Below, piece after piece: positions 4,436 to 62,951 of a stretch of DNA of 64,000 nt. This stretch comes from Forficula auricularia (taxonomy: Eukaryota; Arthropoda; Insecta; Dermaptera; Forficulidae), in NCBI GenBank assembly GCA_024734495.1, contig JALMQS010000132.1:2054789-2118788 (forward strand), written 5' to 3'. Position 1 is the stretch's first letter. Every line of letters begins with the position of its first letter. A model generated the notes under the pieces. That model was not told the DNA's origin and did not search any database. It worked only from the letters and a program-made list of their open reading frames with translations. The translations under genes and the position numbers were made by a program.

Positions 4436-4931
4436 TAAAGAGGTATATAAAGAGAAATAAAGAGGTTGACCTCTGCTTGATGCAAATAAACATACACACA
4501 TATATATCAAATATACATATGTATATATATTATTTATTTGTTTGAGACTATAGTTTCGAAGGCATGGCCTTCATCATCAGTCTTTTTTTAACTCTAAATA
4601 TTATTTTTCATGGAGTCAATATCCACTCGATACTGACCCCATAAAATAATATTTATAATTAAAAAAAGACTGATGATGAAGGCCAAGCCTTCAAAACTAT
4701 AGTCTCACACAAATAAATAATATGTATACATATGTATATTTGATATATATGTGTGTATGTTTATTTGCATCAAGCAGAGGACAACCTCTTTGTTTCTCTT
4801 TGTGAATCAACAACTCTGCTACTCTCGGCAAAATATATATAGCATAAAGCATTATAAAGCAGAGGACATGACATGATTCAACAACTCTGGTACTCTCGGA
4901 AAAATAAAAACTTTTCAATCAAAGAGGTATA
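4436..4931 (+). mobile_element. Family B foldback retroelement
   Basis: AAAGAGGTATA (11 bases; 11/12 as a 12-mer) flanks the element at 4437-4447 and 4921-4931. Two long inverted arms (CTCTGCTTGATGCAAATAAACAT and its complement) meet near 4600-4630. Only the right side has the one-sided tail, ending CTCTCGG..AAAAACTTTTCAAT, so sense is plus. The tail region is partly duplicated: two 'CAACAACTCTG.TACTCTCGG' blocks, near 4808 and 4880. Both arms carry a hammerhead-like core: intact on the minus strand at 4546-4580, and with GAA changed to AAA on the plus strand at 4670-4704. No coding capacity. Confidence 0.75.
4546..4580 (-). ncRNA. Hammerhead-like ribozyme core, family B
   Basis: Reading the minus strand from 4580: CTGATGA, one extra T, stem II GAAGGC/GCCTTC (6 perfect pairs, 3-base loop), GAA, stem III ACTATAGT (self-complementary, starting with A15.1 and ending with U16.1), then C as the cleavage-site base. 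All invariant hammerhead core bases are present; the extra base between A9 and stem II is not in the textbook core. Stem I is short (GA/TC next to the core). Such a short stem III would favour action as a dimer. Activity is inferred, not shown. Confidence 0.6.
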
Positions 4932-5220
4932 TTTATTTATTCATTTATAATTGAAAATTCTAGTCTTTATTTAAAATTTCGTGATTAGAAATTGTGATAC
5001 AGGTTATTTGAATGCCTCTACCATCGTACATTCAGAATGTTTCGTTTTAATTTATTATTTATGTTCGTAAATTCTAGATTTTAAATATTGTTTTGTATGT
5101 CCTATATATGACCTAATATAAGCTATAATTGTGTAAGCTAAATTATTTTGATTTTAAAGAGACTTATTTATCTTTTAATTTTGAAAAAAAAAAGAATGAA
5201 AGTGAAATACTTCTATAAAG

Positions 5221-5420
5221 TTTAGGGAAAGCGGTGTTGGTTTATAGTGAAACATATTAAACACAGGAATTATTTAACAGATTATAGTGGCGTTTCACAA
5301 AGTGGAAATAAAATTAAAAAAATTAAAAAATCTTTTAAATTATTTTGAGATTTTTTAATTTTTTTAATTTTATTTCCACTTTGTGAAATACCACTATAAT
5401 CCGTTAAATAATTCCTGTGT
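5221..5420 (-). mobile_element. Family C foldback retroelement
   Basis: The one-sided tail is at left (5221-5260: TTTAGGGAAAGCGGTGTTGG ... GTGAAACAT). It is followed by two inverted arms of about 70 bases that start ACACAGGAATTATTTAAC and end with its complement at 5420, meeting near 5340. The flanks (ACTTCTATAAAG at left, ACTTCGTTTAAAAG at right) resemble a decayed target duplication, but I do not count it. No ribozyme core lies within these arms, so the arms are 5'-truncated. Confidence 0.65.
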
Positions 5421-6665
5421 AATTACTTCGTTTAAAAGTGGCATGAATATTGTGAAAGAATAATATTTTCTTGATATATTCGGATAACCCTTTTTATGTA
5501 TGAGAAAGAGATGTTTAGCTATCTTAATTTTCTTTAAATTGTTATTATTATTATTTTCATTAATTTTTATTAAAAAATTTCTTATTAAAGAGTCGACAAA
5601 TAATTCTTTACAACATTTTCAAATAATTGTTTTTTTTTATTATTATTAATTTCGATGTTAGATTTAAGAAAGTTTTTATTAGAAAAATATTATCAATGAT
5701 TTAACATGCGCTATATTAAGTAGAAAACTATTTCAGGTTTGAAATCCCATTCAAAAAAACGGTGAGAGAGTATATTAAAATCTACGTAACATGGTCTTTT
5801 TCCCATTTTGACTCCAATTCCACTGCTCAATTACGTTTTTATTTTGGTTATGGGAGAAATTAAAATTTGAGTGGGTGTTTCTTTATAATGGAAATTTTTT
5901 TTGTACTTAAGCAGATTAAAAACAAACAAACAAAAAACTGAAATTATTTTTAAATAAATTAAATTAGACATTGTGGCTTATCTAGGCCATCTTACTCTAC
6001 TTCATTTCGATCACCATTCAATTTAGAATTAAAGAAAAATTAAAAATTTCAAATATTTGATCAAATGTATTTGAACTAATTATTCCATAATAGCTTAAAT
6101 TATAGTAGATATATTAAATAACCTAATTTTTTAGTGTGTCTACTTGTAGTTTATGCACTCTGACCTAATTAATGGAAAATTTGAACTCGTCATCCATATC
6201 ATGGCCATCATTCATCCATGCATTCATCGAACGACCTGAAGAGATATGAAATGGAAAGAGGATTTATTTTGCCTCCCCATGGCAACATTTCATCATTTAT
6301 TTTGCTTGTGGGGCAATGTACCATTTCACTCTCACTCTTCTTTTGCTGAGAACCTGTTTATTGTTTAGACATTAACCTTTAATAAAAAATAAAAAAAAAG
6401 GATGATTACTATTTTACTGAAATATTAACAACTTAACAAAATATATAAATTCAGTTTTATGTTTTTGTGGTCACTATTAATGTTGTTCCTGTTTAATGGC
6501 TTGATCCGCGTTTCCAACGCGCGGTACATATCAACAAGATATCTTTTCTAATTTTCAGACAATGTCGTCCAATATTGATCTATGAAGCTGATTCAAGATC
6601 TGACACTGCGTAAACCAGATAAATATTGGAAGCTACCGAAATGAAGACCTTAAGAATAATTACTA
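5421..6665. other. Intergenic or intronic DNA, no gene recognised
   Basis: AT-rich. 6170-6350 is less biased in composition (contains CCATCATTCATCCATGCATTC and CTCCCCATGGCAAC) and may be unique or regulatory DNA, but nothing specific can be assigned. A 6-bp hairpin CGCGTT/AACGCG lies at about 6508-6522. Confidence 0.4.
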
Positions 6666-6985
6666 TTTTTTTTTTATGAAATTGATGTGAGAAGGAGTTA
6701 CACCAAAAGGGTGTATCCCTTAGAGGCCTGGGTTGCCCCTCCATCGTGAAAAGAAGAAGAAGATGGGATTTTATGGGCTGGGTAGGAGTCGATGGTATCT
6801 TTGGATGTGGGTCTTAAACAGCTGAAAGTTATAAGTCTCAAGGAAGACGGTGGCTGGAAGCGAGTTCCAGTCTCTGGAGGTCATAGGGATAAAGAGTTGG
6901 CGAAAATTAGAAATCGGGATTTCCGAGAATGCTGCGATCTAAATGAAAAAATTAGGAGTAGTCATCCCTTTAGGGGGTGAAGGGA
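6666..6985 (-). mobile_element. 3' end of a LINE (non-LTR retrotransposon)
   Basis: On the minus strand an open frame of 55 codons (6938 to 6771, stop at 6773-6771) ends a typical LINE reverse-transcriptase ORF: FIPMTSRDWNSLPATVF, then a 'QLFKTHIQRYHRLL' tail. The RDWNSLP motif is typical of the C-terminus of jockey/CR1/L2-type ORF2 proteins. A 3' UTR of about 95 bases (with CACCCTTTTGGTGTAACTCC) and a short A tail (T run at 6666-6675 on plus) follow. Related fragments lie at 12223, 25700 and 47020, all on the minus strand. The element is heavily 5'-truncated. Confidence 0.65.
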
Positions 6986-8061: not shown

Positions 8062-8358
8062 TTAAACATGAAATTAATAAAGTAAAGGGTGTGTAGTTTC
8101 ACAGTGAATGAAATAAAACTCAAAGAGGTTTATACAAACTCAATATATTTCGGATTATTAGTTCATCATAAGGAGTTTACAGTTTTAACCTGTAAACTCC
8201 TGATGATGGACTAATAATCCGAAATATATTGAGTTTGTATAAACCTCTTTGAGTTTTGTTTCATTCACTGTGAAACTACACACCCTTTACTTTATTAATT
8301 AATATCATGTTTCACCTAAAACCTACACCACTTTCCCTAATTAAAATTAAACATGAAA
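8062..8358 (+). mobile_element. Family C foldback retroelement with perfect 12-bp target duplication
   Basis: TTAAACATGAAA flanks at 8062-8073 and 8347-8358. Inverted arms of about 100 bases (AATAAAGTAAAGGGTGTGTAG... and complement) meet near 8190. The tail is at right only (ATGTTTCACCTAAAACC...CACTTTCCCTAA), so sense is plus. The right arm holds a hammerhead-like core at 8200-8230; the left-arm copy has lost a core G. A sister copy without the inverted arm is at 58622-58817. Confidence 0.8.
8200..8230 (+). ncRNA. Hammerhead-like ribozyme core, family C
   Basis: CTGATGA (8200-8206), extra T, stem II GGA/TCC with a 7-base loop, GAA (8221-8223), self-complementary stem III ATATAT, and U at the cleavage position (8230). 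Stem II differs from the GGG/CCC of the copies at 42475 and 62922 by a paired change, which keeps the helix. U is permitted but slow as H17 in known hammerheads. Confidence 0.5.
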
Positions 8359-8474
8359 ATGCAAAAGGTCCAAACTGTTTGGTGCTTGGGATCAAACTGC
8401 TTTTAAATGAATCCAAATATTTTTGAAACTTGTTCAAATTTATATTTCATTTATCTTTTCCCCTAGTATTAATA

Positions 8475-10600: not shown

Positions 10601-11126
10601 ACAAATTTTAGTTGAACAGTTTTTATTTTCGCGAGAGTAGCAGAGTTATTGATTCATAAAGAGAAACAAAGAGTTTGTTCTCTGCTTGAAGCAAATAAAC
10701 ATGCACACATATATATAAAAAATATAATATATATTACTTATTTGTCTGAGACTAAAGTTTCGAAGGCCTGGCCCCAATCATCAGTCTTATAATTATAAAT
10801 ATTATTTTTCATGGAGTCACGATCGCGTGGATATTGAAATGTTTTTGTTCTTCCTTAGCCGAAAGCCAGTTAGAATTAAAATTTAGGATATTGAAAATTT
10901 TAATTCTAACTGGCTTTCGGATAAAGAAGAATAAAAAATTTCAATATCCACGCGAAACTGACCCCATGAAAAATAATATTTATAATTAGATGAGATATAT
11001 TTATACTATAAAACGATAGTCTCAAACAAATAAATAATATACATATATGTATATTTTTGATATATATGTGGCATGTTTAATTGCATCAAGCAGAGGACAT
11101 CTTTGTTTCTCTTTACAAATTTTAGT
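10601..11126 (-). mobile_element. Family B foldback retroelement with perfect 12-bp target duplication
   Basis: ACAAATTTTAGT flanks at 10601-10612 and 11115-11126. The tail is at left (GAACAGTTTTTATTTTCGCGAGAGTAGCAG), so sense is minus. Inverted arms contain CTCTGCTTGA.GCAAATAAACATG and, towards the centre, a long GC-moderate palindrome (GAAAGCCAGTTAGAATTAAAA and complement, about 10860-10920). The ribozyme region at 10749-10785 (minus) keeps CTGATGA and GAAAC, but stem II is disrupted. It lies directly beside the family A copy ending at 10592. Confidence 0.75.
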
Positions 11127-11430: not shown

Positions 11431-11989
11431 ATTCAATTTTAGTTTATTATTGATATATTTAAATGAATAGTCTACAGATATATTAAACTGAAACAAAATG
11501 TATCAAAAATAATTTTAATAGGTTTTAAGGATGTGTGTTTTATACAATTTAACAAAATATGATATTGTTATTCGAAAACTTCACCCGTGAATAATTTTTT
11601 TTTCAAGATTCCATCGAAAAGTTCACTTCTTGAAAATTTTAAAGTCTAAGAAACTTGAAAATAATATTAATAAATGAAATTGTATATGTCTATAAAAAGA
11701 TTTTTCAAAAATTTCTCTGTGTGTGTTGGGTATGTTATCTCATTTTCGACTAGAATGTTAAATCTGTAAAATAAAGATTAGATACATAGTTAACTAACTA
11801 CAGATTTTGACTAATTTGGAAACTTATATTAATTGAAGTTTTTCTTTTGCTGAGAGTATCAGATTTGTTGATTCACAAATAGAAACAAACAGGCTGTCCT
11901 CTGCTTGATACAAATTAACACACACATATATATATCGAAATGATATATCTGTATATATATATATATATATATATTATTTACTTGTTTAA

Positions 11990-12024
11990 GACTACAGTTT
12001 CGAAGACTTGGTCTTCATCATCAG
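11990..12024 (-). ncRNA. Hammerhead-like ribozyme core, family B
   Basis: From 12024 on minus: CTGATGA, extra T, stem II GAAGAC/GTCTTC (perfect, 3-base loop), GAA, ACTGTAGT, C. Compared with the copy at 4546-4580, stem II has changed GGC/GCC to GAC/GTC on both sides, a compensated change. Stem III is no longer perfectly self-complementary. Confidence 0.55.
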
Positions 12025-12222
12025 TCTTTTTTAATTTAAGAGTTCTAACTGGCTCCCAGCTAAGAAAAGATAAAAAAAAATTAAATATTCATACGGTATT
12101 GACTCCATGAAATACAATATTTATAATTAAAAAAGACTAATGATGAAGACCAAGTCTTCGAAACTATAGTCTCAAACAAATAAATAATGTATATATATAT
12201 ATACAGATATATCATTTCGATA

Positions 12223-14978: not shown

Positions 14979-15230
14979 AAATTGAAAGTTTCTTTTGCCG
15001 AGAGTAGATGAATTTTTATAACTTAAAGTAAACAATAAAACAGTTTGTCTTCTGCTGGAATAATAAATTTTTAATTTATTTATAATTTCCACTTCCACAA
15101 ATCAATTCCTGTAAATAAATTGTAATAGACTGATGAAGAGGGCAAAGCACTCGAAACTATAGTCTCGTTATAAATAAATGAAAAATTTATTATTCCAGCA
15201 GAAGACACACTCGTTTATTGTCTCCTTTAA
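14979..15230 (-). mobile_element. Family A foldback retroelement
   Basis: Tail at left (AAATTGAAAGTTTC..TTGCCGAGAGTAG), inverted arms (AAACAATAAAAC.GTTTGTCTTCTGCTGGAAT and complement), centre near 15100. The flanks TACTTTTCAATT and TATTTTCATTTC look like a target duplication with an indel. The right arm carries a hammerhead-like core at 15130-15164; the left arm has lost the matching segment, so the palindrome is incomplete. Confidence 0.65.
15130..15164 (+). ncRNA. Hammerhead-like ribozyme core, family A
   Basis: CTGATGA (15130-15136), extra A, stem II GAGGGC/GCACTC (one mismatch, 3-base loop), GAA (15153-15155), self-complementary stem III ACTATAGT (15156-15163), C at 15164 as cleavage base. 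Next to the core, GA before CTGATGA pairs with TC after the cleavage site, with further weak pairing beyond. Confidence 0.5.
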
Positions 15231-15310: not shown

Positions 15311-15678
15311 ATTAAAAAAACTAAATAGAAAGTTTCTTTTTGTCGAGAGAAGCAGAATTTTTATAAATTCAAGGAGACAATAAAAGAGTGTGTGTTCTGC
15401 TGGAATTATAAATTTTTAATTTATTTATAACGAGACTATAGTTTCGAGATCTTTTCCCTCTTCATCAGTCTATTACAATTGATTCACAGGAATTAATGTA
15501 TGTATGGTTCCATATGTAAATCTCACATATCATACATACATTAATTCCTATGAATCAAGAGTAATAGACTGATGAAGAGGGCAAACCTCTCGAAACTATA
15601 GTCTCGTTATAAATAAATTAAAAATTTATAATTCTTGGAGAAGACACTCTTTTACTGTCTCCTTCAATTAAAAAAAAT
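15311..15678 (-). mobile_element. Family A foldback retroelement with 12-bp target duplication
   Basis: ATTAAAAAAACT (15311-15322) and ATTAAAAAAAAT (15667-15678) match 11/12. The tail is at left (AAATAGAAAGTTTC.TTTTGTCGAGAG), so sense is minus. Arms of about 150 bases meet at a short spacer near 15500 flanked by GTATGTATG / CATACATAC. Hammerhead-like cores lie in both arms: minus at about 15432-15470 with a weakened stem II, plus at 15569-15603. Confidence 0.75.
15569..15603 (+). ncRNA. Hammerhead-like ribozyme core, family A
   Basis: CTGATGA (15569-15575), extra A, stem II GAGGGC/CCTCTC (one wobble, one mismatch), GAA (15592-15594), ACTATAGT (15595-15602), C at 15603. Confidence 0.5.
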
Positions 15679-16396: not shown

Positions 16397-16429
16397 CTCA
16401 AGAAGGAGAGAGTAAATCTCCGAAACGTC
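16397..16429 (+). ncRNA. Hammerhead-like ribozyme core in a separate family, one core change
   Basis: CTCAAGA (G5 changed to C), extra A, stem II GGAGA/TCTCC (perfect, 7-base loop), GAA (16422-16424), stem III ACGT, C at 16429. Stem I pairs ACC (16394-16396) with GGT (16430-16432). No inverted arm is visible here: it looks like a single sense copy, followed by GAATAAATGTAAAATAG. The layout CTNAAGAAGG..CCGAAACGTCG resembles terminal repeats of Penelope-like elements as I remember them (not checked). Confidence 0.45.
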
Positions 16430-16591: not shown

Positions 16592-16831
16592 TTAATAAGT
16601 AGTTGAAGGGAAATAAGGCCAATAGCTTAAGCAAATAATTTTTATTTTTAACAACTATGTGATGACTGGCCTTATGTGTTTGATGAGAATGAATATTAAT
16701 AAAATGACAAATATGTAAAGAAGTTAATTTGGTTGAGCCCTGAGGAAGTCAACAACGTTGACGAAACGTTGGCAAAAATAAAAATTATTTGCATAAGCTA
16801 TTGTCCTTATTTCCCTACAACTACTTATTAA
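16592..16831 (+). mobile_element. Foldback element with a hammerhead-like core (family I)
   Basis: TTAATAAGTAGTTG.AGGG and further bases through AATTTTTATTTTT (16592-16662) are nearly complementary to 16777-16831. The centre contains an unpaired sense segment with the ribozyme-like core at 16740-16770. No 12-base duplication or tail was found, so the boundaries are those of the arms only. Confidence 0.55.
16740..16770 (+). ncRNA. Hammerhead-like ribozyme core, family I
   Basis: CTGAGGA (16740-16746), extra A, stem II GTCAAC/GTTGAC (6 perfect pairs, 3-base loop AAC), GAA (16763-16765), stem III ACGT, U at 16770. Stem I GCC (16737-16739) pairs with GGC (16771-16773). Of all copies here, this one has the clearest three stems around a complete set of core bases. 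Confidence 0.6.
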
Positions 16832-18642
16832 TTTAATCGATGGACATAAATAATTAAAATATTATTTGTCTGATATTCAAGATCTCAAGAGTTAGATCTA
16901 ATGAAAATGTATTTTTATTTTGAAATGCATCGAATGATTGGCATGATGTTTTGAATTAATTTTTTATAATAAAATTAAGAAATGTTTTTAAATAAGTAGG
17001 AAACATTAATTTAAGTAGATGGCAAAGTCGGAATTATAAACACAAATAAATAAATTATATAAGTATCAAGATTAAAATTTCATTTAATCGTATATATTTT
17101 ACTATGCTTGATTAGAATTACTAGACAAAGCAATCGTATCTTAAAAGAGAATTTCTTTTAATACACCTATTTAGTTAAAGTATAATATAGGCATTATAAT
17201 AGATTTAATTGTATATAGGGAGAGGTTGGAAAACAAGTTGTAATTTATCGTAAACAAGCTCCGACCTGTTTGCTTGAATTGAAAGAAATCGTTCAATTCA
17301 ATAGTTCTAGGATTTCACTTTTAACTATTAAGTGCTTGTGCAATAACTAGTACTCTTTATTGCAAGGTCCAAAGTTCACTCCCCACCATGACCCTATATA
17401 TAATAATTTAGATCAATCAAAAGTAAATAAGCTAGCTTTGAGTTATTATTTTTTCAGCTTTCAAATTTGTTTTCTTCAACTAATATAAAATCTTTTTTAT
17501 TTCCATTACCCAACAAAGGGAATTGGTGATTCTATTAGTAGAGATAAAAAACTTATTTTCTTAAATATATTGTAGTTAAGATATTTACAGATCTTACGTT
17601 TCAAGGTCCAACATGTATTTTAGAAAATGTCTGCATATGTATGTATGTATGTAAACAAAATTAGTCAGTTGAACTAATGTTGAATTTAAAGGTCTGGAAT
17701 AATTCATAAGAAAGTACGATTGACTTTTAATTTTTTTTTTAGAGTATTCTATGCCTTTTGTAATATTTTCCAAATTTCTCAAAAAGGATTTTAATGATTT
17801 TTATAAAAAAAAATGAGTAAACAGAAGCTTCCAAATAGCTTCTATTAATAATTTTCATATAAATGTTAATTTTCGAAATTTTATTTATTTATTTATTTGG
17901 AAAAATTGTGGTTTTTAACAAGTGTCGAATTTCCTTTACAGAAATGCACATTGGATGATTTTTGCGTCTTATTTGTTTACCATTGGTCTCGTCGTGAGGC
18001 GATTATTATTAAGTATAAATATATATAATATAATAATTTTTCTTACACAAGTAAGAAATGATTTTTCGTTTAAAATACATTCTGCAATAAAAATTCGCCC
18101 CTCGTTAGAGACCACATTTTTTTATTTTGGAATAAAAAAATGAAAACTGCCTTAATTAAAAACAAATAAAATCCTATGTATGAATATTTATAATTTTTAC
18201 TGGTAATACATGAAACGGAATATTATATTATTTACCACTCAATGGTGAGTAGATCAAAATTTAATGTAATCCGAAATGACGCAATCCTAGTTAATAGTTT
18301 TAACGTCCCCATAAATATGTGAATCTTTCATATTTTTGGAATTTAACGTGACCAATAGAAAATTAAAATAAACAAGTGTAAATAAAATTGAGGTTGGGAA
18401 TAAATTTTCATTGCATTTATATTATAATTATAAAGGTGATAAAAAGAGCAAATCATTTGGTTGAAAACAAAGATATTCAATAAAAATGAATGCATTTATC
18501 TCTTTAAACGAAATCAAGAATTTTTTGAAGAAGAAATACTCCAGAGAGCAAAAATGTGTTTGTTTAATTGATTTTATTTAATGCAAATAAATGTCATGAC
18601 AATACCTTAAAAAAAAGGAAAGGACAGAAACGTTTTTACCTT
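16832..18642. other. AT-rich DNA, no gene recognised
   Basis: No supported gene or repeat. The open frames at 17594-17782 and 17922-18143 have no recognisable domain. 17220-17400 has a more balanced composition but no motif. Confidence 0.45.
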
Positions 18643-18757
18643 ATGCTGGAGAATAATTGGTAGAGATTGTGGTGTTGGTGCAAGGTGAAACATCTTTAAT
18701 AAAGATAAGAGTAAATAAATATAATATTTATTTACTCTTATCTTTATGCTGGAGAAT
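18643..18757 (-). mobile_element. Minimal family C foldback (91 bp) with perfect 12-bp target duplication
   Basis: ATGCTGGAGAAT flanks at 18643-18654 and 18746-18757 (14 bases match if the preceding TT is counted). Between them is the family C tail (GGTAGAGATTGTGGTGTTGG..AAGGTGAAACATC) and a tiny inverted pair, AAAGATAAGAGTAAATAAATAT and its complement. It shows the essential parts of a copy: tail plus any 5' remnant. Confidence 0.75.
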
Positions 18758-21220: not shown

Positions 21221-21535
21221 AACGTTTATTTAATTGAAAAGTTTTTATTTTGCCGAGAGTAGCAGAGCTGTTGATTCATAAAGAGAAACAAGGTGGTTGT
21301 CCTCAGCTTGATGCAAATAAACATACACACTTATATATCAATGTACATATATTTTTTTTTATTAGTTTGAGACTATTGTTTCGAAGGCTTGGCCTTCATC
21401 ATCAGTATTTTTAATTATAAATATTATTTTGGGATCAGTATCACTTGGATATTGAAAATTGCTTTGCTCTTACTCAGCCGAAAGTCAGTTAGTTAGAATT
21501 AAAAACCTTGTTTCTCTTTATAAAACTTTTATTTA
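21221..21535 (-). mobile_element. Family B foldback retroelement with 12-bp target duplication
   Basis: AACGTTTATTTA (21221-21232) and AACTTTTATTTA (21524-21535) match 11/12. The tail is at left (ATTGAAAAGTTTTTATTTTGCCGAGAGTAGCAG), so sense is minus. The right arm is internally deleted and keeps only CCTTGTTTCTCTTTAT. Hammerhead-like core at 21371-21405 on minus. Confidence 0.7.
21371..21405 (-). ncRNA. Hammerhead-like ribozyme core, family B
   Basis: From 21405 on minus: CTGATGA, extra T, stem II GAAGGC/GCCTTC (perfect), GAA, ACAATAGT (one base off self-complementarity), C. Confidence 0.5.
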
Positions 21536-30049: not shown

Positions 30050-30237
30050 GTATCTGAATTAATAACTTATAAGGAGTTAGGTGTTGGTTCTAGGTGAAAC
30101 ATTTTAATATAATAATAAAATGATGATGGGCTCACCCCCGAAATATATCGAATTCAAAACTCAATTTTGTTTTATTTCTTTTTTTTTGTGAAACCTACCT
30201 CGCATCTTGCTCAAGTTTTATTATTGTATCTGAATTA
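30050..30237 (-). mobile_element. Family C retroelement with perfect 12-bp target duplication
   Basis: GTATCTGAATTA flanks at 30050-30061 and 30226-30237. The tail is at left (AAGGAGTTAGGTGTTGGTTC.AGGTGAAACATTT), followed by a short inverted stretch (AATAATAAAA / TTTTATTATT) and a truncated arm. That arm starts inside the ribozyme-like core: TGATGA, extra T, GGG/CCC, GAA, ATATAT, C at 30121-30149, with the first C missing. Confidence 0.75.
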
Positions 30238-30603: not shown

Positions 30604-30902
30604 GAATTAAAAGTGCTAGAAAATCATAAGATGGTGTCTTATCTATTAAATCCGATGGAATGGAATATTTTTAATTATATGTCAGAGGGGTTCGAATCCC
30701 GCAGGTGGGCCAGATGGCCCGGATTGCTGTTACTGCCACTGGGGTTCGAATTCCGAGTGGGTGAAAAATAACCCCTCTGACATATAATTAAAAATATTCC
30801 ATTCCATCGGATTTAATAGATATGACACCATCTTATGATTTTCTAGTAAATTTGAATCTATTACCATCGGCAAATTGAAATCCTTCATATGAATTAAAAA
30901 TG
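30604..30902 (+). mobile_element. Family D (tRNA-like) foldback with 12-bp target duplication
   Basis: GAATTAAAAGTG (30604-30615) and GAATTAAAAATG (30891-30902) match 11/12. Inverted arms CTAGAAAATCATAAGATGG.GTC...CCATTCCATCGGATT of about 90 bases; tail at right only (TTTGAATCTATTACCATCGGCAAATT...CCTTCAT), so sense is plus. The centre carries GGGGTTCGAATCCC, a GGGCCAGATGGCCCGG hairpin and GGGGTTCGAATTCC, that is, two pol III B-box-like / T-loop sequences. The 60-codon minus frame here is a by-product. Confidence 0.75.
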
Positions 30903-35254: not shown

Positions 35255-35658
35255 ACATTTTGCTTGAAGGAGACAATAAAAGAGTGTGTCTTCTGCTGGA
35301 ATTATAAATTTTATTTATTTATAACGAGACTATAGTTTCGAGGGCTTTGACCCTCTTCATCAGTCTATTACAATGTATTCACAGGAATGAATCCATAAAT
35401 TAATTCCTGTGAATACATTGTAATAGACTGGACGAAGAGGGCAACCCTCGAAACTATAGTCTCTGAATGCAGTGAATTAATTCCTGTGAATACATTGTAA
35501 TAGACTGAAGAAGAGGCAGAGCCCTCGAAACTATAGTCTCGTTATAAATAAATAAAATTTATAATTCCAGCAGAAGACGCTACACTCTTTTATTGTCTCC
35601 TTCAATATATAAAAATTCTGCTACTCTCGGCAAAAACTTTCAATTTAACATTTTGCTT
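35255..35658 (+). mobile_element. Family A foldback, three-copy core, perfect 12-bp target duplication
   Basis: AACATTTTGCTT flanks at 35255-35266 and 35647-35658. The tail is at right (CTGCTACTCTCGGCAAAAAC then TTTCAATTT), so sense is plus. The left arm (TGAAGGAGACAATAAAAGAG...) mirrors the right. The centre holds three ribozyme-like segments: minus at 35328-35363 (intact), plus at about 35427-35463 (core disrupted, CTGGACGA), and plus at 35505-35538. The element therefore has one inverted and two direct copies, the mixed tandem/inverted order known for Penelope-like elements. Confidence 0.8.
35328..35363 (-). ncRNA. Hammerhead-like ribozyme core, family A
   Basis: From 35363 on minus: CTGATGA, extra A, stem II GAGGG/CCCTC (5 pairs, 6-base loop), GAA, ACTATAGT, C (35328). 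The plus-strand copy at 35505-35538 reads CTGAAGA (N7=A, allowed) with a one-base-shorter stem II. Confidence 0.55.
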
Positions 35659-42338: not shown

Positions 42339-42731
42339 TCTAATAATTTGTTAAAGATATAAGTAAATAAATATTTTATGAGATATTAATTTACTATGAG
42401 TTAGGTTTTCTAGATCACTTGTTTCACGTTAAAAATTAAAAAAATAAATAAAAGAGGTAATTTTATCAATATACTATATATTTCGGGCTATCAACCCATC
42501 TTCAGGAATCACAGAAAATAACTAATTCAACTTTTTGAATATTAGAGTATAAATGTGTTTAGTGAACATTTACCTCTTTTATTTTTTTAATTTTTAACGT
42601 GAAACAAGTGACCTAGAAAACCTAACTCATAGTAAATTAATATCTCATAAAATATTTATTTACTTTTATCTTTATTAAAGATGTTTCCCCTCGCACCAAC
42701 ACCACAATCTCTATTAATTCCTAATAATTTG
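42339..42731 (+). mobile_element. Family C foldback inserted in the Tc1-like element
   Basis: TCTAATAATTTG (42339-42350) and CCTAATAATTTG (42720-42731) match 11/12. Arms of about 120 bases (GATATTAATTTACTATGAG.TTAGGTTTTCTAGA... and complement). The tail is at right (ATGTTTCCCCTCGCACC.ACACCACAATCTC), so sense is plus. The right target duplication lies inside the inverted repeat of the Tc1-like element, which fixes the order of insertion. Hammerhead-like core on minus at 42475-42505. Confidence 0.75.
42475..42505 (-). ncRNA. Hammerhead-like ribozyme core, family C
   Basis: From 42505 on minus: CTGAAGA (N7=A), extra T, stem II GGG/CCC with 7-base loop, GAA, ATATAT, A as cleavage base. Confidence 0.5.
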
Positions 42732-42905
42732 GCCACCCATATATTTCGGGGTACGAGCCCATCTTCAGAAGTTCATAGAGAGAGTAGGACTTGTACTCCG
42801 AAATATACCAAAGAGTCATGCTAACAAGCATCTCGTCTTTTATTTTGTGAAACTTAAAATGAATTTTATATTTTAAAATTTTTTAAATTTTCTTTATTTT
42901 ATTAA

Positions 42906-45965: not shown

Positions 45966-46681
45966 TAAATAAATTAACTAGAAAATCATAAGATGATGTC
46001 ATCTATTATATCCGATGGAATGGAATATTTTTATTTTTAATTATATGTCAGAGGGGTTGTTTACGCGTTTGCATATGTCAGAGAGGTTCGTATCCCGCAG
46101 GTGAGCCAGGTGGCCCGGATTGCTGTTACTGGCACTCGGGTTCGATTCCCGAGGGGTGAAAACAACCCCTCTGACATATAATTAAAAATATTCCATTCCA
46201 TCGAGATATAACAGATGACATCATCTTATGATTTTCTAGTAAATTTGAATCTATTACCATCGGCAAATTAATATCTTTCATATTAAATTAGGAAAAGTCA
46301 TTCCAATGCCCTTCGAATTTTGAATTTCTTCAAAATTCGAAACACTCAACCACCTTTATTTAAATTATATGGCATGGCTATATGTTTAAATTTAGAATCA
46401 CTATATCGCGAAATTTTACAAATTAAGATAACAATCTTTGAGTAAAATATTTTACGCGTTTGCATATGTCAGAGAGGTTCGTATCCGCAGGTGAGCCAGG
46501 TGGCCCGGATTGCTGTTACTGGCACTCGGGTTCGATTCCCGAGGGTGAAAAACAACCCCTCTGACATATAATTAAAAATATTCCATTCCATCGGATATAA
46601 TAGATGACATCATCTTATGATTTTCTAGTAAATTTGAATCTATTACCATCGGCAAATTAATATCTTTCATAAATAAATTAA
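45966..46681 (+). mobile_element. Compound family D element, perfect 12-bp target duplication
   Basis: TAAATAAATTAA flanks the whole unit at 45966-45977 and 46670-46681. Order: an inverted arm (45978-46060), a sense tRNA-like centre, sense arm and tail (to about 46280), then a second, longer sense copy (46281-46669) with its own centre, arm and tail. The copies are thus one inverted fragment followed by two in direct tandem. An 11-bp perfect hairpin (46314-46339) followed by AAAC lies in the long copy. The 119-codon minus frame at 46572-46931 is a chimera across this element and repeat G. Confidence 0.75.
46098..46156 (+). other. tRNA-like segment of family D
   Basis: T arm TCGGG/CCCGA with 7-base loop TTCGATT (46136-46152), containing a perfect pol III B box GGTTCGATTCC (46139-46149). 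About 30 bases upstream is an A-box-like GAGCCAGGTGG (46103-46113). No acceptor stem pairs, so this is not a functional tRNA; an internal pol III promoter is plausible. The same segment recurs at about 46490-46545. Confidence 0.5.
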
Positions 46682-50183: not shown

Positions 50184-50218
50184 TGTTGTCTGTGAATATT
50201 GAGGTTTTATAATTCTTT

Positions 50219-50923
50219 TTGATTGAAGGATGTTGGATAGGCGTTGCTAGGCAGTATATTTATATAGAAACAGTATATTTAGAAAGCAGTAGAAATTCTA
50301 GTGACATAAATGATCTCGAATCGAATATTCAAGTTGTAAAAAGAAAAATTCCTGAGAATAAAAATTATAAAGAATTGAAATGTTTTTCATGTGGAGGCAC
50401 AAATCATTTGAGAACCAATTGTTATTTTAAAAATAGTAATTGTTTTAAATGTGGGTTAAAGGGGCATATAGGCAGAATTTGTAAGGCTTCAGTGAAAGTT
50501 AAAAATACCGAGGAGACTAGTGATAGCGAACAGAAAAGTAATTGCATATCAGATATACTATGTAACGTTAATAGTATCACAGATTCTAAAATTATTCAAG
50601 TTAATGTTGAATTAGAAGGATATAACGTTTTGATGGAAGTAGATACTGGTTCTGGAGTAACAATAATAAACAAAAAGACTTGGGAAAGAATAGGGAAGCC
50701 CCTACTGCAACCATGTAAATTGCAATTAAAGAGTTATTCAGGTCATGGAATTAAAGTAAAGGGTCAAAGTATGGTGAATGTCAAATGTTTCGGAAATGAA
50801 GCTAGTTTAAAATTATTCGTATCAGATGAATCAGGAAATAATCTATTGGGTAGAGACTGGCTTTTTGGTTTGAATCTCACATCACTAAGTATTGATTTTT
50901 TTGAAGAAATTAGATACAAATAA
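50219..50923 (+). pseudogene. Gypsy gag C-terminus and protease
   Basis: The first dozen or so codons are flank and LTR remnant, so the ATG at 50219 is not the native start. Two CCHC zinc knuckles (C-X2-C-X4-H-X4-C at residues 55-68 and 75-88) mark the nucleocapsid end of gag, which binds RNA. An aspartic protease follows with DTGS at residues 142-145 and the LLGRDWL motif near residue 212. The frame ends at the start of the linker to RT; the RT frame is +1 relative to it. The capsid part of gag is deleted. Confidence 0.85.
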
Positions 50924-51911
50924 AGAGGGTAAAAATTCGGGGTGTTGCAACTCAATTTTACTAAATAAGGATTTGATTAAAACAAAATATTTTAGTATTT
51001 TTCAAGAAGGCCTTGGAACTTGTACTAAAGTAAAGGCGCATCTTTATTTGAAGCCTGGGGTAAAACCTAAATTTTGTAAGGCTCGTGAAGTATCTTTTGC
51101 GAACAAAGAGGCAGTCAGAAATGAAATTGAGCGCTTAGTAGCTATGGGAGTAATAGAAAAAGTCGATCATACTGACTGGGCAGCACCAATAGTTATTGTT
51201 CCTAAGCCAGGGGGTGCGGTTCGAATTTGTGGAGATTTTAGTACAGGACTAAATGACTCATTAGATACTCACAAGTATCCTTTACCCACGGCAGAAGAAT
51301 TATTTGCTTCATTAAATGGGGGACAAAAATTTTCAAAAATAGATCTATCTGATGCTTATTTGCAAGTAGAGTTAGATGAAGGAAGTAAATCTTTGGTGGT
51401 AATAAATACCCATAAAGGGTTGTACAAATATAACAGATTACCGTTCGGGATAGCTTCAGCCCCTAGTATATTTCAAAATATAATGGATCAGATGCTAGGT
51501 GGTTGTGAAGGGGCTATGTCTTATTTAGATGATATAATAGTTACTGGCAGAAATGATGAAGAACACCAAAGAAATTTAGCTAAAGTGTTAGATAAGATAC
51601 AGGAATATGGGTTCCGATTAAATTTTTTAAAGTGTTCGTTTTTTAAGAATTCGGTGGAGTATTTAGGGTTCAATATAGATAGTCAAGGGATTCGTCCATC
51701 TCCAAATAAAATTAAAGCTGTGGTAGACATGCCAGAACCGAAGAATATAAACGAATTACGTTCATTTTTGGGTATGATAAATCATTATACTAAGTTTATA
51801 CCTCACCTATCAAGTAATTGTGAACCTCTATACAATTTATTAAGGAAAGATCAGAAATGGGGGTGGGAAAAAGAAAGTAAATCATGTTTTGCAAATTTAA
51901 AAAGAAATTGA
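50892..51911 (+). pseudogene. Gypsy reverse transcriptase
   Basis: A full Ty3/gypsy RT domain. VPKPGG near residue 104, first catalytic Asp in FSKIDLSDAYLQ (D151), LPFGIASAP at about 183-191, YLDD at 211-214 with both catalytic Asp, then the thumb/connection (LRSFLGMINHY). All three catalytic Asp are kept. The frame ends at 51911 because an A run at 51899-51903 appears one base short; RNase H continues in another frame. Confidence 0.9.
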
Positions 51912-52165
51912 CTTCATCGTTAGTTTTAACTCATTATGACCCCTCATTACCTCTTATATTAGCTGCAGATGCATCAAATATAGGTATAGGAGCAGTTTTA
52001 TTTCATCGGTTCCCAGATGGTACAGAGAAAGTGATTTGCTATGCCTCCAAAACTCTTTCACATGCAGAAAAACGTTATGCTCAAATAGAGCGAGAGGCTC
52101 TTGCTTTAATTTTGGCGTTAAAAAGTTTTATAAATATTTATGGGGAAGAGAATTCATACTGTTAA
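51884..52165 (+). pseudogene. Gypsy RNase H, first part
   Basis: Starts in the overlap with RT. Contains LILAADASNIGIGAVL with the first catalytic Asp (D29) and the YAQIEREALA helix with the catalytic Glu. The frame is lost after ALALILALK at an A run (52120-52124), again apparently one base short; the next part is in the third frame. Confidence 0.85.
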
Positions 52166-53226
52166 CCGATCATAAGCCGTTAACGACAATTTTCGGCAAA
52201 AAGAAAGGAATTTCTTCATTAACAGCTAGTAGATTACAACGATGGGCACTTATATTAATGGGATATAATTACAAGATTGAATATATAAAATCAAATGAAA
52301 TGCAAGCAGATGCTCTTTCCCGTCTTCCTAACAATGTAAATGACTTAGACAATGATTTTGCTTGTCACCAAATTATTAATATACTATATGAGGATTTTCA
52401 TGAAAAGTTACCGATTAAAGCAAAAGATATTGAACGAGAAACTCGTAATGACCCTAAATTATCTCAAATAAAAAAATTTGTATTGGATGGTTGGCCTGAA
52501 AGAATTAATGATGAGAAATTAAGACCTTATTTTAAAATAAAAACAGATCTCACTATTTATAATGGTTGTATTATGCGAGGATTTCGAACAGTTATACCTG
52601 AAATATTTCATACTAAATTATTAAATTATCTACATGAGACACATAATGGCATGGTAAGAATGAAATCATTGGCTAGACAGTATTTTTGGTGGTCTAATTT
52701 GGATATGGATATTGAAAAGTTAGTCCGGAATTGTGAAAATTGTTCGTTAATAAGCAATAATCGAGTGAGGAATTTCAAGGAAGGAGATGAGGTGATAGTT
52801 AGAGATTTTAGGAGGGTAAGAAGGTCAGATTGGACTAAGGGAATTTTAGAAAAGAAAATAGGAAACAGAATATGGATTGTAAAAATTAGTGGAGAAAATT
52901 GGCGCAGACATGAAGATCAAATAAAACGGGGTTTCCAGAAAGATCCCGATGAAGAACCATTAAAAGATCCCGATGAAGAACCATTAAAAGATCCCGATGA
53001 AGAACCATTAATCATTCCCCCAATAATTCCACCTGTGGCTAATAATGGCAACAATACTGAAACACCCACTATTCGACACCAGATTCCAAATACAGCGTCT
53101 CCACCGTTAGAACCTTCGCCAGCGAATCAACGAACCGTTTCTGATCCATCGCAAAATTCAACGACCTCAGGCACAAGACCTAAAAGAACATGCAAAGCGC
53201 CTCAACGCCTTATAGAAGAAATTTAG
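52036..53226 (+). pseudogene. Gypsy RNase H end and integrase lacking its catalytic core
   Basis: The first ~28 residues are out-of-frame shadow; true homology starts near residue 29. The RNase H remainder includes LLTDHKPL and ADALSRLP. The integrase zinc-binding HHCC domain follows (H200, H203, C233, C236; about residues 165-242). At about residue 243 it jumps straight to the chromodomain-like/C-terminal region (FKEGDEVIVRDF). The whole DDE catalytic core, normally about 150-200 residues, is missing, and the join keeps the frame. A tail with three KDPDEEPL repeats and Pro/Thr/Ser-rich sequence ends just before the polypurine tract. Confidence 0.85.
52939..53010 (+). repeat. Three exact 24-base tandem units in gypsy pol
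   Basis: Units 52939-52962, 52963-52986, 52987-53010 are identical and encode KDPDEEPL each. In-frame coding minisatellite near the C-terminus of integrase; the identity implies recent expansion. Confidence 0.9.
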
Positions 53227-53234: not shown

Positions 53235-53392
53235 TGTTGGATAGGCGTTGCTAGGCAACGCTGGTTATTGTTTACTGTTGATTGTTGTTGTTTGTTTTGT
53301 TTTCTAATTCTTATGTGATATTTGATTGAATAAAGATTATTCGTTACCCAATTGAGTAGTGTGAATATTTTACTATAATGACGGACACAACA
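53235..53392 (+). repeat. Gypsy 3' LTR (158 bp)
   Basis: TGTTGGATAGGCG at the start, GGACACAACA at the end; 5-base inverted ends TGTTG/CAACA. Preceded by a polypurine tract (AGAGGGAAGG, 53225-53234). AATAAAG near 53329 is a possible poly(A) signal. An unusually short LTR. Confidence 0.85.
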
Positions 53393-53568
53393 AAGGAGAT
53401 AATAAAAGAGTGTGTCTTCTGCTGAAGAAATAAATTTTAAATTTATTTATAACAATCGTTAACAAAATTTATTTCCCCAACAGAAGACACACTCTTTTAT
53501 TACTCCTTCAATTTATAAAAAATCTGCTACTCTCGGCAAAAATAAACTTTCAATTTAATTCCTTTTGA

Positions 53569-53799: not shown

Positions 53800-54772
53800 T
53801 TGGCAAATTTAAAAGTGAGATATGCATATTAGTTATATAGTCAATAAGGCTTATAGGAAATTGGGTATGTTTGGTAGAATTTTGAAGGGTACATCTAGAG
53901 AAGTTAAGTCAAAAGTTTATTTAACTTATGTAAGACCTAATTTAGAGTATTGTTCTGTTGTTTGGGACAAACGATTAGAGAGAAAAATTGATATGGTACA
54001 AAGGAGGGTGGCTAGATTTGTTTTGGATAAATTTGATAGGTTTAGTAGTGTCACTTCATTGATTAATGAATTAGGATGGTCTAGCTTATTGGAGAGAAGA
54101 GAATGGGCTAAATTGAAATTGATTTTTAAAGCGTATAAGGGTTTTGAAAGTTGGGAGGAAATAACTAATAGATTTCAGGAACCAAATTATTTAGGTAGAG
54201 CTGATCATAGAAAAAAGATTCGTAAGCCAAGATTCTTGAAAAATATCGGTTTACATTAATTTGTAGGATCTGGCATTGATTTTTGGAACAGTCTTACTGT
54301 TACTACTTGGGATTATAGTCCTCTGTCCCCTATGATTAAATCAATTATAAATTTTGTCAAGTCCTAATGTCCTAGAATTGTGCAAAATTTTATTTAGTTC
54401 TCACAAGCAGAGATTACCTGAGGTAGAGAGAGGTCATACCATCCTTGTTAAGGTTTTGACCAGGTTTCCTTACAACTTATGACAAATGTCAGGATTGCTA
54501 ATGCGTCGTTTCCTTCTGGTATCGGGTTTTTGCGCGGAATTATTTAAATTACGTTTTGTCTTTTGATGGAAATCTATGATCATGTTATTTGTAAATGAAC
54601 ATACATTTATATCTTTTTTTTTCTTTTTCTTATTTGTTAATTGTTAATTTCTTTTAATTGATTTGTTTATTAATTTCTGTAGTTAATTTGTATTGATGTT
54701 TTGTTGACCTAGCCACCGAGGACTTGTGCCTCTAAGCAGGTCGAGTAATAATAAAGATTTATTTATTAGTTG
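53800..54772 (+). mobile_element. 5'-truncated LINE (CR1/L2/jockey-like)
   Basis: C-terminal part of ORF2 (53822-54367) followed by about 400 bases of 3' UTR. The UTR ends in a GAGGACTTGTGCCTC hairpin region and the simple-repeat tail AATAATAAAGATTTATTTATT. Truncation lies just upstream of 53816, where an in-frame stop occurs. Distinct from the four LINE 3' ends on minus. Confidence 0.75.
53822..54367 (+). pseudogene. LINE ORF2 C-terminal region with one nonsense codon
   Basis: The segment reads HISYIVNKAYRKLGMFGRIL, VRPNLEYCSVVWD, VQRRVARFVL, SVTSLINELGWSSLLERREW: the standard region after the RT domain of jockey/CR1/L2-type LINEs. The frame meets a TAA at 54257-54259. It then continues in the same frame as GSGIDFWNSLTVTTW... 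to a second stop at 54365-54367, so a single nonsense mutation separates the two parts. The catalytic RT motif is upstream and missing. Confidence 0.8.
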
Positions 54773-58297: not shown

Positions 58298-58335
58298 CCA
58301 CAATTCCATTATCTCTCAACAAGAACATAGTCACT

Positions 58336-58540
58336 ATAGTCTAGATATTGAAGGAGACAATAAAAGAGTGTGTCTTCTGCTGGAATTATAAATTTTATTT
58401 ATTTATAACGAGACTATAGTCTCGTTATAAATAAATAAAATTTATAATTCCAGCAGAAGACACACTCTTTTATTGTCTCCTTCAATATATAAAAATTCTG
58501 CTACTCTCGGCACAAAAACTTTCAATTTTGAGTCTAGATA
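58336..58540 (+). mobile_element. Family A snap-back element
   Basis: AGTCTAGATA repeats at 58338-58347 and 58531-58540 (10 exact; 10-11 of 12). The element (58348-58528) is a perfect palindrome (GAAGGAGACAATAAAAGAG... and complement) plus the one-sided tail at right. The arms meet exactly at GAGACTATAGTCTC, i.e. at the self-complementary stem III and cleavage site of the family A ribozyme; the core itself is absent. Confidence 0.75.
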
Positions 58541-58621: not shown

Positions 58622-58817
58622 ACTCCTAATTTAACTAATAAGTTTTAACCTGTAAACTACTGATGATGGACTAATATTCCGAAATATATTGAGTTTGTAT
58701 AAACCCCTTTGAGTTTTATTTCATTCACTGTGAAATTACACACCCTTTACTTTATTAATTAATATCATGTTTCACCTAAAACCTACACCACTTTCTCTAA
58801 GTAAAACTCCTAATTTA
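58622..58817 (+). mobile_element. Family C sense-only copy with perfect 12-bp target duplication
   Basis: ACTCCTAATTTA flanks at 58622-58633 and 58806-58817. The 172-base insert starts shortly before the ribozyme-like core, runs through the body (GAGTTTGTATAAACCCC, TTCATTCACTGTGAAATTACAC) and ends in the family C tail (ATGTTTCACCTAAAACC...CACTTTCTCTAAG). There is no inverted arm: a simple 5'-truncated copy. Confidence 0.8.
58660..58690 (+). ncRNA. Hammerhead-like ribozyme core, family C
   Basis: CTGATGA (58660-58666), extra T, GGA/TCC stem II with 7-base loop, GAA (58681-58683), ATATAT, U at 58690. Nearly the same as the core at 8200-8230. Confidence 0.5.
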
Positions 58818-59127: not shown

Positions 59128-59541
59128 ATTTTTGATTTGAGGCAACTTGAGCCGCAAAAGTTAGATAATGTAATCAATAATTTCTTATGTTAATCTACAT
59201 ATTTAGAAAATTATTTTATTATTTTTTGAAAAGGGAATATGAATTGAGTACCCGAAGGTATTTGAACCCGTGTCTCTCTTCTTTAGCCGAAGAGGGCCTT
59301 ACCTGGCAGGATCATCCGCGGCCTAGTTGGTAAAGGCGCTCTTCGGCTAAAGGAGAGAGACACAGGTTCGAATCCCGCCAGGTGCTCAATTCATTTTTCC
59401 TTTTCAAAAAATAATAAAATAATTTTCTAAATATGTAGAATTAACATAAGAAATTATTGATTACATTATTTAACTTTCGCGGCTCAAATTGCTTTAATAA
59501 AAAATTAAAACTAACGTTTAAAAAGTTAATTTTTGATTTGA
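59128..59541 (+). mobile_element. Family F (tRNA-like) foldback with 13-bp direct repeat
   Basis: ATTTTTGATTTGA is at 59128-59140 and 59529-59541 (13 bases; 12 if one is shared with the tail). Arms of about 150 bases (GCAACTTGAGCCGC.AAAGTTA... and complement GCGGCTCAAATTGC). The tail is at right only (about 59491-59528, TTAATAAAAAATTAAAACTAACG). Same layout as families A-D. The centre is tRNA-like. Confidence 0.75.
59312..59390 (+). other. tRNA-like segment of family F
   Basis: A box GGCCTAGTTGG (59320-59330) and B box GGTTCGAATCC (59365-59375) at tRNA-like spacing, with a CTCTTCGGCTAAAGGAGAG arm between. Acceptor stem and U33 are not tRNA-like, so this is a tRNA-derived or tRNA-mimicking promoter rather than a gene. 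The left arm repeats it on minus at about 59250-59300. Confidence 0.55.
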
Positions 59542-59640
59542 ATTTTGTAACATCACAATTTTTAAGATCCCTGGGCCCAACTGTCACATTTTGTCACAAA
59601 TCTGAGGTGCCCCCTTGTGTGACGTAATTTATGGACTGCC

Positions 59641-61545: not shown

Positions 61546-62051
61546 AGTGTTATATTAAATCATCAATTGCGATGTTTCGCTGTTTTATTACAGCTTCCTC
61601 AGGCTCTTTGATAAATTTTTTTCTAAACACTTTATCAGTTCATTTACGCTTTGTCATTCAGTTATTGAAAACAATTTATTCATACAACACCAATATTTAT
61701 TTATGAGAAGCCAGAGAAGCTTTACAAACTCATGCACTCTCTCAAATGGTAAAAAAATAAAAACTGTCAATACATTATAAATTTTATAATATGTTGACAG
61801 TTTTTTTAATCATTTGAGACAGTTTTTTTTTCGTATCATTTAAGAATGTGCATTGAGTTTGTAAAGTTTCTGTGGCTTTTCTAAATAAATATTGGTGATG
61901 TATGAATAAAGTGTGTTCAAATTTTTATATGTATAACTGAATGCCAAAGCTTAAATGAACTGACAAAGTGTTTAGAAAAAAATTTATCAAGAGCCTGAGG
62001 AAGCTGTAATAAAACAGAAAAACGTCGCAATTGATGATTTAATATAACACT
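61546..62051. mobile_element. Palindromic element with hammerhead-like cores (family J)
   Basis: AGTGTTATATTAAATCATCAATTGC at left and its complement at right lead into arms of about 240 bases meeting near 61790 (ACTGTCAA / TTGACAGT). Ribozyme-like cores: minus 61571-61602 (intact), plus 61995-62026 (two core changes). No tail or 12-base duplication was found, so it may be a fixed older form. Confidence 0.6.
61571..61602 (-). ncRNA. Hammerhead-like ribozyme core, family J
   Basis: From 61602 on minus: CTGAGGA, extra A, stem II GCTGT/ACAGC (perfect, 6-base loop), GAA, ACAT, C. Stem I GC/GC. The plus copy at 61995-62026 has ACGT as stem III but ACAGA and AAA in place of ACAGC and GAA. Confidence 0.55.
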
Positions 62052-62407
62052 TTTTACACAGGTCGACAAAAAAACTTTTACTTTCATTTTTTCTAGGTTT
62101 CTGTTTTAATGCATAAATTCTGATGCTAGACATCGAAAAACACCAAAATATCCATTCTTAGCTTTTATTAAAGTTTCCTTTTGTCTGTTTCACGTCGATA
62201 AGTAATTTTTAAAGATTTTAATTGATTTTACAAGAACCAGTCCCATAAACTTCATATGCTACATGCTCACCTGGATCAATTTAAAGATATAACTTTTAAG
62301 GAGTTCTTTGTTGGTTCTAGGTGAAACATTTTAATATAATAATAAAACTTGAGTAAGATACGAGGTAGGTTTCACAAAAAAAATAAAACAAATTGAGTTT
62401 TGAATTC

Positions 62408-62437
62408 GATATATTTCGAGGGTTAGCCCATCATCAG
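62408..62437 (-). ncRNA. Hammerhead-like ribozyme core, family C
   Basis: From 62437 on minus: CTGATGA, extra T, stem II GGG/CTC (one wobble), GAA, ATATAT, C (62408). This is the sense-strand copy of the element. Confidence 0.5.
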
Positions 62438-62921
62438 GAGTCTAAGAAAACTGATTATATATTGGAAAAATAGTTTTACAAGTAACAATTTAAATTTTTT
62501 TTAAATGTATGTGTTGAGAGGAAAGTAGGAGAAGAGAAATATGTTCTAAGAATTAATATTTTCTATTGAGATTTGAACGGGCTGAGAGGAAGATATACCT
62601 GCTATTATAATAACGAATGGGAAAGTACCTGAGAGGGTACAACTGAAAGGTACATAAGAGAGTACAATTACCCTAGTATATTCAATGTGCGAACATGTAC
62701 CTTTCCAGTTGTACCTTCTCAGGTACTTTCCCATTCGTTATTATAATAGCAGGTATAGCTGCCTTTCAGCCCGTTCAAATCTCAATAGAAAATATTAATT
62801 CTTAGAACAACTTCTCCTCTTCCCCCTACTTTCCCCTCACCACATACATTTAAAAATTTTTTTTTTTAAATTGTTACTTGTAAAACTATTTTTCCAATAT
62901 ATAATCAGTTTTCTTAGACTC

Positions 62922-62951
62922 CTGATGATGGGCTAACCCCCGAAATATATC
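62922..62951 (+). ncRNA. Hammerhead-like ribozyme core, family C
   Basis: CTGATGA (62922-62928), extra T, GGG/CCC stem II, GAA (62942-62944), ATATAT, C at 62951. Confidence 0.55.

Follow-up and report, generated by a model that had tools for sequence, protein, structure and literature searches.

Minimal type I hammerhead ribozymes have reportedly been described in Penelope-like elements (PLEs) by Cervera and de la Pena (2014) and by Luense, Weinberg and Breaker (2017). In the available text of two further papers, PLE hammerheads are minimal variants without helix III that may act as dimers and whose role is unknown (PMC7761336, PMC6155905). The accessible sections on the endonuclease-containing Penelope of Adineta vaga describe inverted pseudo-long terminal repeats (pLTRs), palindromes at their junction, a 31-bp tail on one inverted pLTR and target-site duplications (TSDs) of 8-10 bp (PMC3846280). 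For the Poseidon element PAc of Anolis carolinensis, the consulted part of its description gives a hammerhead at the junction of pLTR and open reading frame (ORF), a tail bounded by two adjacent start sites of the reverse transcriptase (RT), and an insertion in which both target strands are cut and extended, with a preference for AT-rich targets (PMC11167929). Here, a window of 64,000 nucleotides of Forficula auricularia (GenBank assembly GCA_024734495.1, contig JALMQS010000132.1, positions 2,054,789 to 2,118,788) was analysed, and it is highly likely that a set of short repeats in it are pLTR fragments of several PLE families, sharing as their core the minimal type I hammerhead of the PLE pLTR. 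Given that minimal type I hammerheads without helix III are already published in PLE pLTRs, this kind of ribozyme is known and is not a new one.

The core was sought with a descriptor consisting of CTGANGA, zero or one nucleotide, a stem II of at least 3 bp, GAA, a stem III that begins with A and ends with U, and a position 17 (H17) other than G. On both strands of the window, to which the core, repeat, TSD and end counts all refer, 16 loci match this descriptor, whereas 100 order-2 Markov shuffles averaged 0.65 matches and never gave more than 3. These loci contain the hammerhead core C3 U4 G5 A6 N7 G8 A9 / G12 A13 A14 A15.1 / U16.1 H17, and in all 16 a single extra base (A or T) separates A9 from stem II. 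This base may set them apart from the published PLE hammerheads, and it is within precedent, given that in the accessible part of PMC10085705 known hammerheads have at most one or two nucleotides inserted at this point. When stem III was further restricted to loopless, self-complementary words of 4, 6 or 8 nt, 14 loci with an exact core and one base before stem II were retained, against none in 60 shuffles, while no locus in the window has the palindromic stem III without the inserted base (shuffle mean 0.02). The two loci lost in the strict scan (21371- and 61571-) have stem III words, ACAATAGT and ACAT, that are not perfect palindromes. Five more copies have one mismatch in the core (4670+, 12137+, 16397+, 19701- and 30120+; shuffle mean 0.47), and further, more decayed copies were detected by homology only. 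Scans of viral contigs (0, 20 and 3 stretches) and prokaryote contigs (at least 117 stretches, 80 of them listed) with DNA patterns found no relatives; only 3 of the 140 pattern matches fetched from these contigs have a stem II of at least 4 bp, which is why they are regarded as chance. It is very probable that the motif represents a PLE-type hammerhead.

An earlier note on this DNA, made from the letters alone, had reported a hammerhead-like core at about a dozen loci, and all 12 are among the 16. It had overlooked four (15468-, 35505+, 42768- and 62437-), and the six minus-strand coordinates that it gave mark the cleavage side and not C3, which is located at 4580, 12024, 21405, 35363, 42505 and 61602. 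The exact agreement with the conserved hammerhead positions that it proposed holds for the core, with the correction that all 16 copies have an extra base before stem II, and the self-complementarity of stem III applies to the 14 palindromic loci and is imperfect in the other two. Its observation that the core stays constant while the stems vary is borne out by compensatory changes in stem II and by the switch of stem III between three palindromes, namely ACTATAGT in families A and B (altered in some copies), ATATAT in families C to F, and ACGT in families G, H and I. Across families, each of the stem II pairs 10.2, 10.3 and 10.4 occurs as four standard pair types. In ten representatives picked by the analyst, 28 of the 30 cells at stem II pairs 2-4 show pairing, whereas dealing the partners anew gave a mean of 14.8 and a maximum of 25 over 20,000 shuffles. 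Within family A, a double-sided change converts GAAGGC/GCCTTC to GAAGAC/GTCTTC, and copy A3 thus differs from A1 by an A-T in place of a G-C pair, so that stem II is kept by compensation, as in a hammerhead. Stem I has from 0 to 9 contiguous pairs.

The setting of the motif goes beyond the earlier note. The self-comparison, as read by the analyst, places 13 of the 16 loci within inverted repeats (those outside are 21405-, 42768- and 58660+), mostly of about 160-740 bp, and in the two-arm elements the hammerheads point outward. Inverted pLTRs with a palindromic junction are a Penelope-like feature, and so are short TSDs in AT-rich DNA, found here at many elements in a window with a G+C content of 29%. 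Exact TSDs have 12 bp in A1, A2, C1, C2, D1 and D2, 13 bp in B3, 11 bp in E1 and H1, and 10 bp in B4; those with one mismatch have 14 bp in A4 and 13 bp in B2, and two further elements, at 18655-18743 and 2206-2332, have 14 and 13 bp. A shared flanking word of at least 11 bp is present in 8 of 18 elements, against 3.1% of 3,000 random placements; one of the eight, B0, has a doubtful TSD because the word resembles the tail itself, and four more TSDs come from wider flanks (A1, D2) or from further sites. A 13-bp repeat at B1 (14984 and 15328) was rejected as a TSD given that it belongs to the tail sequence, and a 10-bp word common to 27142 and 27321 was also rejected. The families, described as unrelated-looking in the earlier note, are apparently related in kind, as pLTR fragments of PLEs.

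In each inverted element with an accepted TSD, one of the two ends is at an inner site while its opposite extends to an outer one. By the analyst's count on the sequences, this extension measures 44-48 nt in A2, B2, B3, B4, C1, D1 and E1, and 28 nt in H1, where the two end sites rest on one copy. This combination of one long and one short end is observed in 11 of 11 elements (A1, A2, B2, B3, B4, C1, D1, D2, E1, H1 and the one at 18655), and also in B0, which is outside this count; with equal random odds it would occur once in 2,048, for a set that was assembled post hoc. A tail extension on one end is a Penelope-like feature. The single-arm copies with a TSD, A4 and C2, have long ends. The distance from the predicted cut site is 61-97 nt for the short ends, except for the 124 nt of E1, and 88-137 nt for the long ends. 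In separate insertions (B2, B3 and B4; A1 and A2) the positions of the short ends deviate by no more than about 3 nt from one family-specific site. In the partially covered literature found for hammerhead and Penelope combined with inverted, palindromic or foldback, and for solo pLTRs, such a strict pairing is unstated, apart from the remark in the available text of PMC3846280 that places the tail on one of the inverted pLTRs. This regularity is less expected than the ribozyme itself and is the part worth following.

Compared with the available descriptions of PLE minimal hammerheads, the copies in the window share the type I layout, the location in the pLTR, the reduced or absent helix III and a likely dimeric action. 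With the Adineta vaga Penelope, as covered in PMC3846280, they share inverted pLTRs, junction palindromes, an optional one-sided tail, short TSDs and solo pLTRs, whereas they are short, have no recognised coding sequence, and have tails of 44-48 nt (28 in H1) instead of 31. Poseidon PAc, in the part of PMC11167929 that was available, is similar in the hammerhead near the ORF start, the two RT starts, the cutting and extension of both strands and the AT-rich targets, and also in an RT start about 85-92 nt past the cut site, by the analyst's arithmetic on figures given in that paper. It differs in that its ORF begins at hammerhead stem II, while the likely ORF start of families C to F is in the tail, and in that it shows no strand difference in the start site, while each inverted insertion in the window has a long and a short end.

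Given that stem III is a loopless palindrome, a single copy makes no good hammerhead and the three-stem form arises most easily from two paired copies. This would fit a dimer, and it argues for dimeric or protein-assisted action. In a nearest-neighbour model applied to 15 loci, the dimer form is lower in energy than one monomer form at 14 and lower than two monomer forms at 13, the exceptions to the latter being G1L and H1. A pairing of AGACT with AGTCT was spotted by eye in A and B copies as a candidate competitor of the hammerhead fold. In A1, B2, B3, C1 and D1 almost all of the motif (29-34 of 30-36 bases) is predicted to pair with the opposite arm and to be buried by it, and in A4, C2, D2, E1 and H1 it is predicted to stay unburied. 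In palindromic copies the ribozyme would thus be silenced by the opposite arm, and any activity would have to be looked for in stretches with a single arm or in PLE transcripts of full length, with cleavage of these copies possibly occurring as dimers. In B3, two hammerhead units are placed head to tail by a 77-bp tandem duplication (35398-35540), and the core of the first unit, at 35428+, is damaged and degenerate; this is a natural tandem arrangement relevant to the dimer idea.

Coding traces are present as well. The 11 tails of families C to F, selected by likeness to one pattern with up to 5 mismatches, have the consensus start M-F-H-L-x-P-T-P-x-S-L, although several deviate at one residue or more, and 9 of 11 start with ATG. 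In this frame the synonymous to nonsynonymous codon pairs number 122:190, whereas the two other frames give 54:258 and 37:271, and third codon positions vary most, by a small margin (0.334 versus 0.255 and 0.205), a pattern as expected of what may be an ORF start. The 13 matching tails of families A and B show no comparably clear ORF start. Near A1, in which part of the right tail is duplicated, there is a relic of a GIY-YIG endonuclease whose matched stretch is outside the A1 duplication. Its sole database relative, P0139, is 71% identical over 40% of the query, has a Pfam score of 16.3 bits, and resembles what we take to be a PLE endonuclease. A single ORF running from the tail at 5255- into the relic was considered and rejected, given that the likeness to other tails stops near 5222, so that the adjacency of tail and relic is probably accidental.

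Several results count against assigning these loci to PLEs. The motif search on both strands with one base allowed, proposed in the earlier note, succeeded with the descriptor (16 loci versus 0.65), whereas the Rfam hammerhead models gave no match in the whole window at the gathering score or at E up to 10, and none at E up to 10 on two single loci. In the nearest-neighbour model, none of the 15 loci (F1 omitted) has the hammerhead as its most stable monomer or dimer, and at all of them other folds are lower in energy. The TSDs have 10-14 bp, against the 8-10 bp that the consulted text gives for rotifer PLEs (PMC3846280), and no TSD was accepted for A3, B1, F1, F2, G1, the outer B4 copy and five of seven further sites. 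The way in which the C to F tails were selected favours a shared consensus, and the score of the GIY-YIG relic (20.6 bits, E 5.5e-4, PF01541) is below the cut-off of 22.6. No RT or GIY-YIG model was matched in the 90 ORFs scanned out of 99 of at least 62 residues; the others were 8 in or beside a gypsy element and one at 11919-12107, and the 220 ORFs of 45-61 residues were counted only. Two YxDD-like matches (460- and 32863-) are candidates only. The window has no full-length element, and a telomerase-like RT can therefore not be judged on pLTR fragments; with no PLE-type RT found, it is chiefly the structure, rather than a coding gene, that supports PLE membership.

A hairpin signal bound by the PLE RT and endonuclease, with cleavage absent or incidental, would account for minimum-energy folds that differ from the hammerhead, and the available results on the Anolis PLE show in vitro insertion despite hammerhead mutations, and an RNA cleavage that required protein (PMC11167929). 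Nonetheless, the excess over the shuffles consists of the catalytic letters, which the scans demand and the shuffles almost never supply, and in the same part of that study C3G or G8C alone kills cleavage while both together restore part of it. A mere binding signal is therefore unlikely. The long inverted arms with small centres, the outer ends conserved inside a family and the 52 inverted-repeat pairs of at least 40 nt, at many of which no hammerhead was found, are also what foldback or miniature inverted-repeat (MITE-type) DNA transposons with terminal inverted repeats would leave, the core then being a structural palindrome moved by a transposase, and one ORF has a weak match to a DDE_3 transposase domain (E 0.0039). 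Such terminal repeats would be equal, whereas the ends are unequal by a fixed extension in all 11 inverted elements with an accepted TSD; moreover, the single-arm A4 and C2 carry duplications too and the window contains the GIY-YIG relic, which makes this origin very improbable.

Metazoan non-LTR retrozymes are tandem repeats that contain type I hammerheads and propagate via circular RNA. According to the accessible part of PMC7229834, they resemble the copies in being non-coding, built of short units and of type I layout, and both the tandem duplication in B3 and the head-to-tail element at 2206-2332 would suit them. None of the arrays of 150-450-bp tandem repeats that this text reports for retrozymes was found in the window, and the copies are chiefly inverted, with PLE-type ends and a PLE tail, so that a retrozyme origin is very improbable. 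The assignment to pLTR fragments of several PLE families is thus strongly preferred.

What is observed directly in these fragments, that is, the core, the covariation, the palindromic stem III, the inverted arms, the duplications and the long and short ends, suggests a priming scheme for the palindromes that we infer as follows. Two copies would pair via the palindromic stem III to form the three-stem hammerhead, or a PLE protein would assist it. New copies would arise by target-primed reverse transcription, in which the endonuclease would cleave both strands of AT-rich DNA about 12 bp apart and both 3' ends would prime complementary DNA (cDNA), one from the outer start and one about 45 nt further in. 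The two cDNAs would join head to head, in many cases through a short stretch of complementarity, and the product would be a short palindromic insertion with one hammerhead per arm, facing outward. B4 is joined at the stem III word, which implies that its cDNAs extended beyond the cut site before meeting at this palindromic word. The left arms of B1 (15015-15085) and B5 (53392-53453) terminate 2-3 nt downstream of where the cut is predicted and look as if a cleaved RNA had been their template; most arms continue through this site, and the stops are too few to judge whether cutting sets the inner ends.

The available text of PMC3846280 proposes that palindromes arise via self-priming on the antisense template. 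By the analyst's inference, self-priming leads to equal ends unless there is an early stop, whereas the observed short ends are at fixed sites, which agrees better with priming on both sides from two start sites. Also considered was a separate RNA template for each arm. Over 10 arm pairs, by the analyst's sums, 76 differing sites are private to one arm and 9 have both states elsewhere, giving no sign of two sources; the two arms are mutually nearest in only 4 pairs (A1, A3, C1, D1), in 5 (A2, B1, B2, B3, B5) one arm or both come closer to some other copy, and B4 ties. This test is weak because families C and D offer one or two further copies and the arms are mutually nearest in 4 of the 10 pairs. 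A tentative, rather doubtful extension is that a dimeric PLE enzyme reads one uncut RNA twice, from starts about 45 nt apart, one per target strand, that cutting ends this process, and that the palindromes silence themselves. In such a case, two polymerases could not share one start, so that every inverted insertion would have a long and a short end, and copies born as palindromes would silence their own ribozyme because the arms pair with each other.

Table 1. Positions of the elements, hammerheads and coding relic in the window (TSD, target-site duplication).
Feature	Positions	Strand	TSD	Ends	Hammerhead or basis
Head-to-tail two-unit element, C-F type	2206-2332		13-bp duplication	unit 1 long, unit 2 short	
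A1, inverted pLTR pair	4449-4920		AAAGAGGTATAT at 4437-4448 and 4921-4932	short left, long right	
A1 left-arm hammerhead core	4546-4580	-			descriptor scans
A1 partner hammerhead, degenerate (GAA to AAA)	4670	+			one-mismatch scan
GIY-YIG endonuclease relic, decayed, with stops	4968-5141	-			PF01541, matched stretch 4968-5108
C1, near-perfect palindrome	8074-8346		TTAAACATGAAA	short left, long right	
C1 hammerhead, stem I 9 bp	8200-8230	+			descriptor scans
C1 mirror hammerhead copy, degenerate	from 8172	-			homology
A2, palindrome	10613-11114		ACAAATTTTAGT	long left, short right	decayed hammerheads
A3 left-arm hammerhead	11990-12024	-			one-mismatch partner at 12137+
B1 hammerhead	15130-15164	+			descriptor scans
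B2, inverted pair	15324-15666		13 bp, 1 mismatch	long left, short right	15468-, 15569+
I1 degenerate hammerhead (CTCAAGA), ACGT class	16397-16429	+			one-mismatch scan
H1, inverted arms	16593-16858		ATATTATTTGT	short left, long right	16740-16770 +
Mini inverted element, E type	18655-18743		TTATGCTGGAGAAT	long left, short right	without hammerhead
A4, single-arm copy	21234-21522	-	14 bp, 1 mismatch		21371-21405 -
D2, collapsed inverted pair	30062-30225		GTATCTGAATTA	long left, short right	degenerate, 30120+
B3, inverted pair	35267-35646		AACATTTTGCTTG	short left, long right	35363-, 35505+
E1, inverted pair	42351-42720		CTAATAATTTG	short left, long right	42475-42505 -
F1 hammerhead	42738-42768	-			stem III taken as ATAT
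B4, palindrome centred on hammerhead stem III word (GACTATAGTC)	58348-58530		AGTCTAGATA	short left, long right	
C2, single-arm copy	58634-58805	+	ACTCCTAATTTA		58660-58690 +
G1, inverted repeat	61546-62051		none found		61571-61602 -, stem III damaged
D1, inverted pair	62290-63025		AATTTAAAGATA	long left, short right	62408-62437 -, 62922-62951 +

In the stretch 42340-42768, the E1 insertion adjoins F1, whose hammerhead side stops at or beside its own predicted cut site. Of the 52 inverted-repeat pairs of the window 25 are shown, and those where no hammerhead was found include 59194-59439, 30604-30858, 32443-32740 and 45971-46635. The Rfam scan gave many matches to microRNA precursors, none at its own curated score, which are attributed to the long inverted repeats. 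The window also contains a gypsy-type long terminal repeat element with an RT at 50213-53223, whose RT relatives are 44-62% identical among the 120 listed, the named ones being mostly from invertebrates, and which contains, near its 3' part, three copies of a 24-bp unit (52939-53011); with this element and a CR1-like ORF, the window resembles invertebrate DNA. An ORF at 53819-54256, presumably the C-terminal part of a CR1-like RT, has 18 relatives (17 from ENA contigs), 16 of them at 72-94% identity, and another ORF with a low-density lipoprotein receptor class A domain (E 8.9e-11) is likely a host exon.

These results identify ribozyme motifs that are invisible to Rfam as probable PLE debris, and the one-base insertion together with the loopless palindromic stem III provides a simple descriptor for such copies. 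They also make several families ready for testing a published PLE ribozyme whose role is described as unknown in the available text of PMC7761336. The pairing of long and short ends offers a genomic footprint for testing PLE insertion, where in vitro work has only begun.

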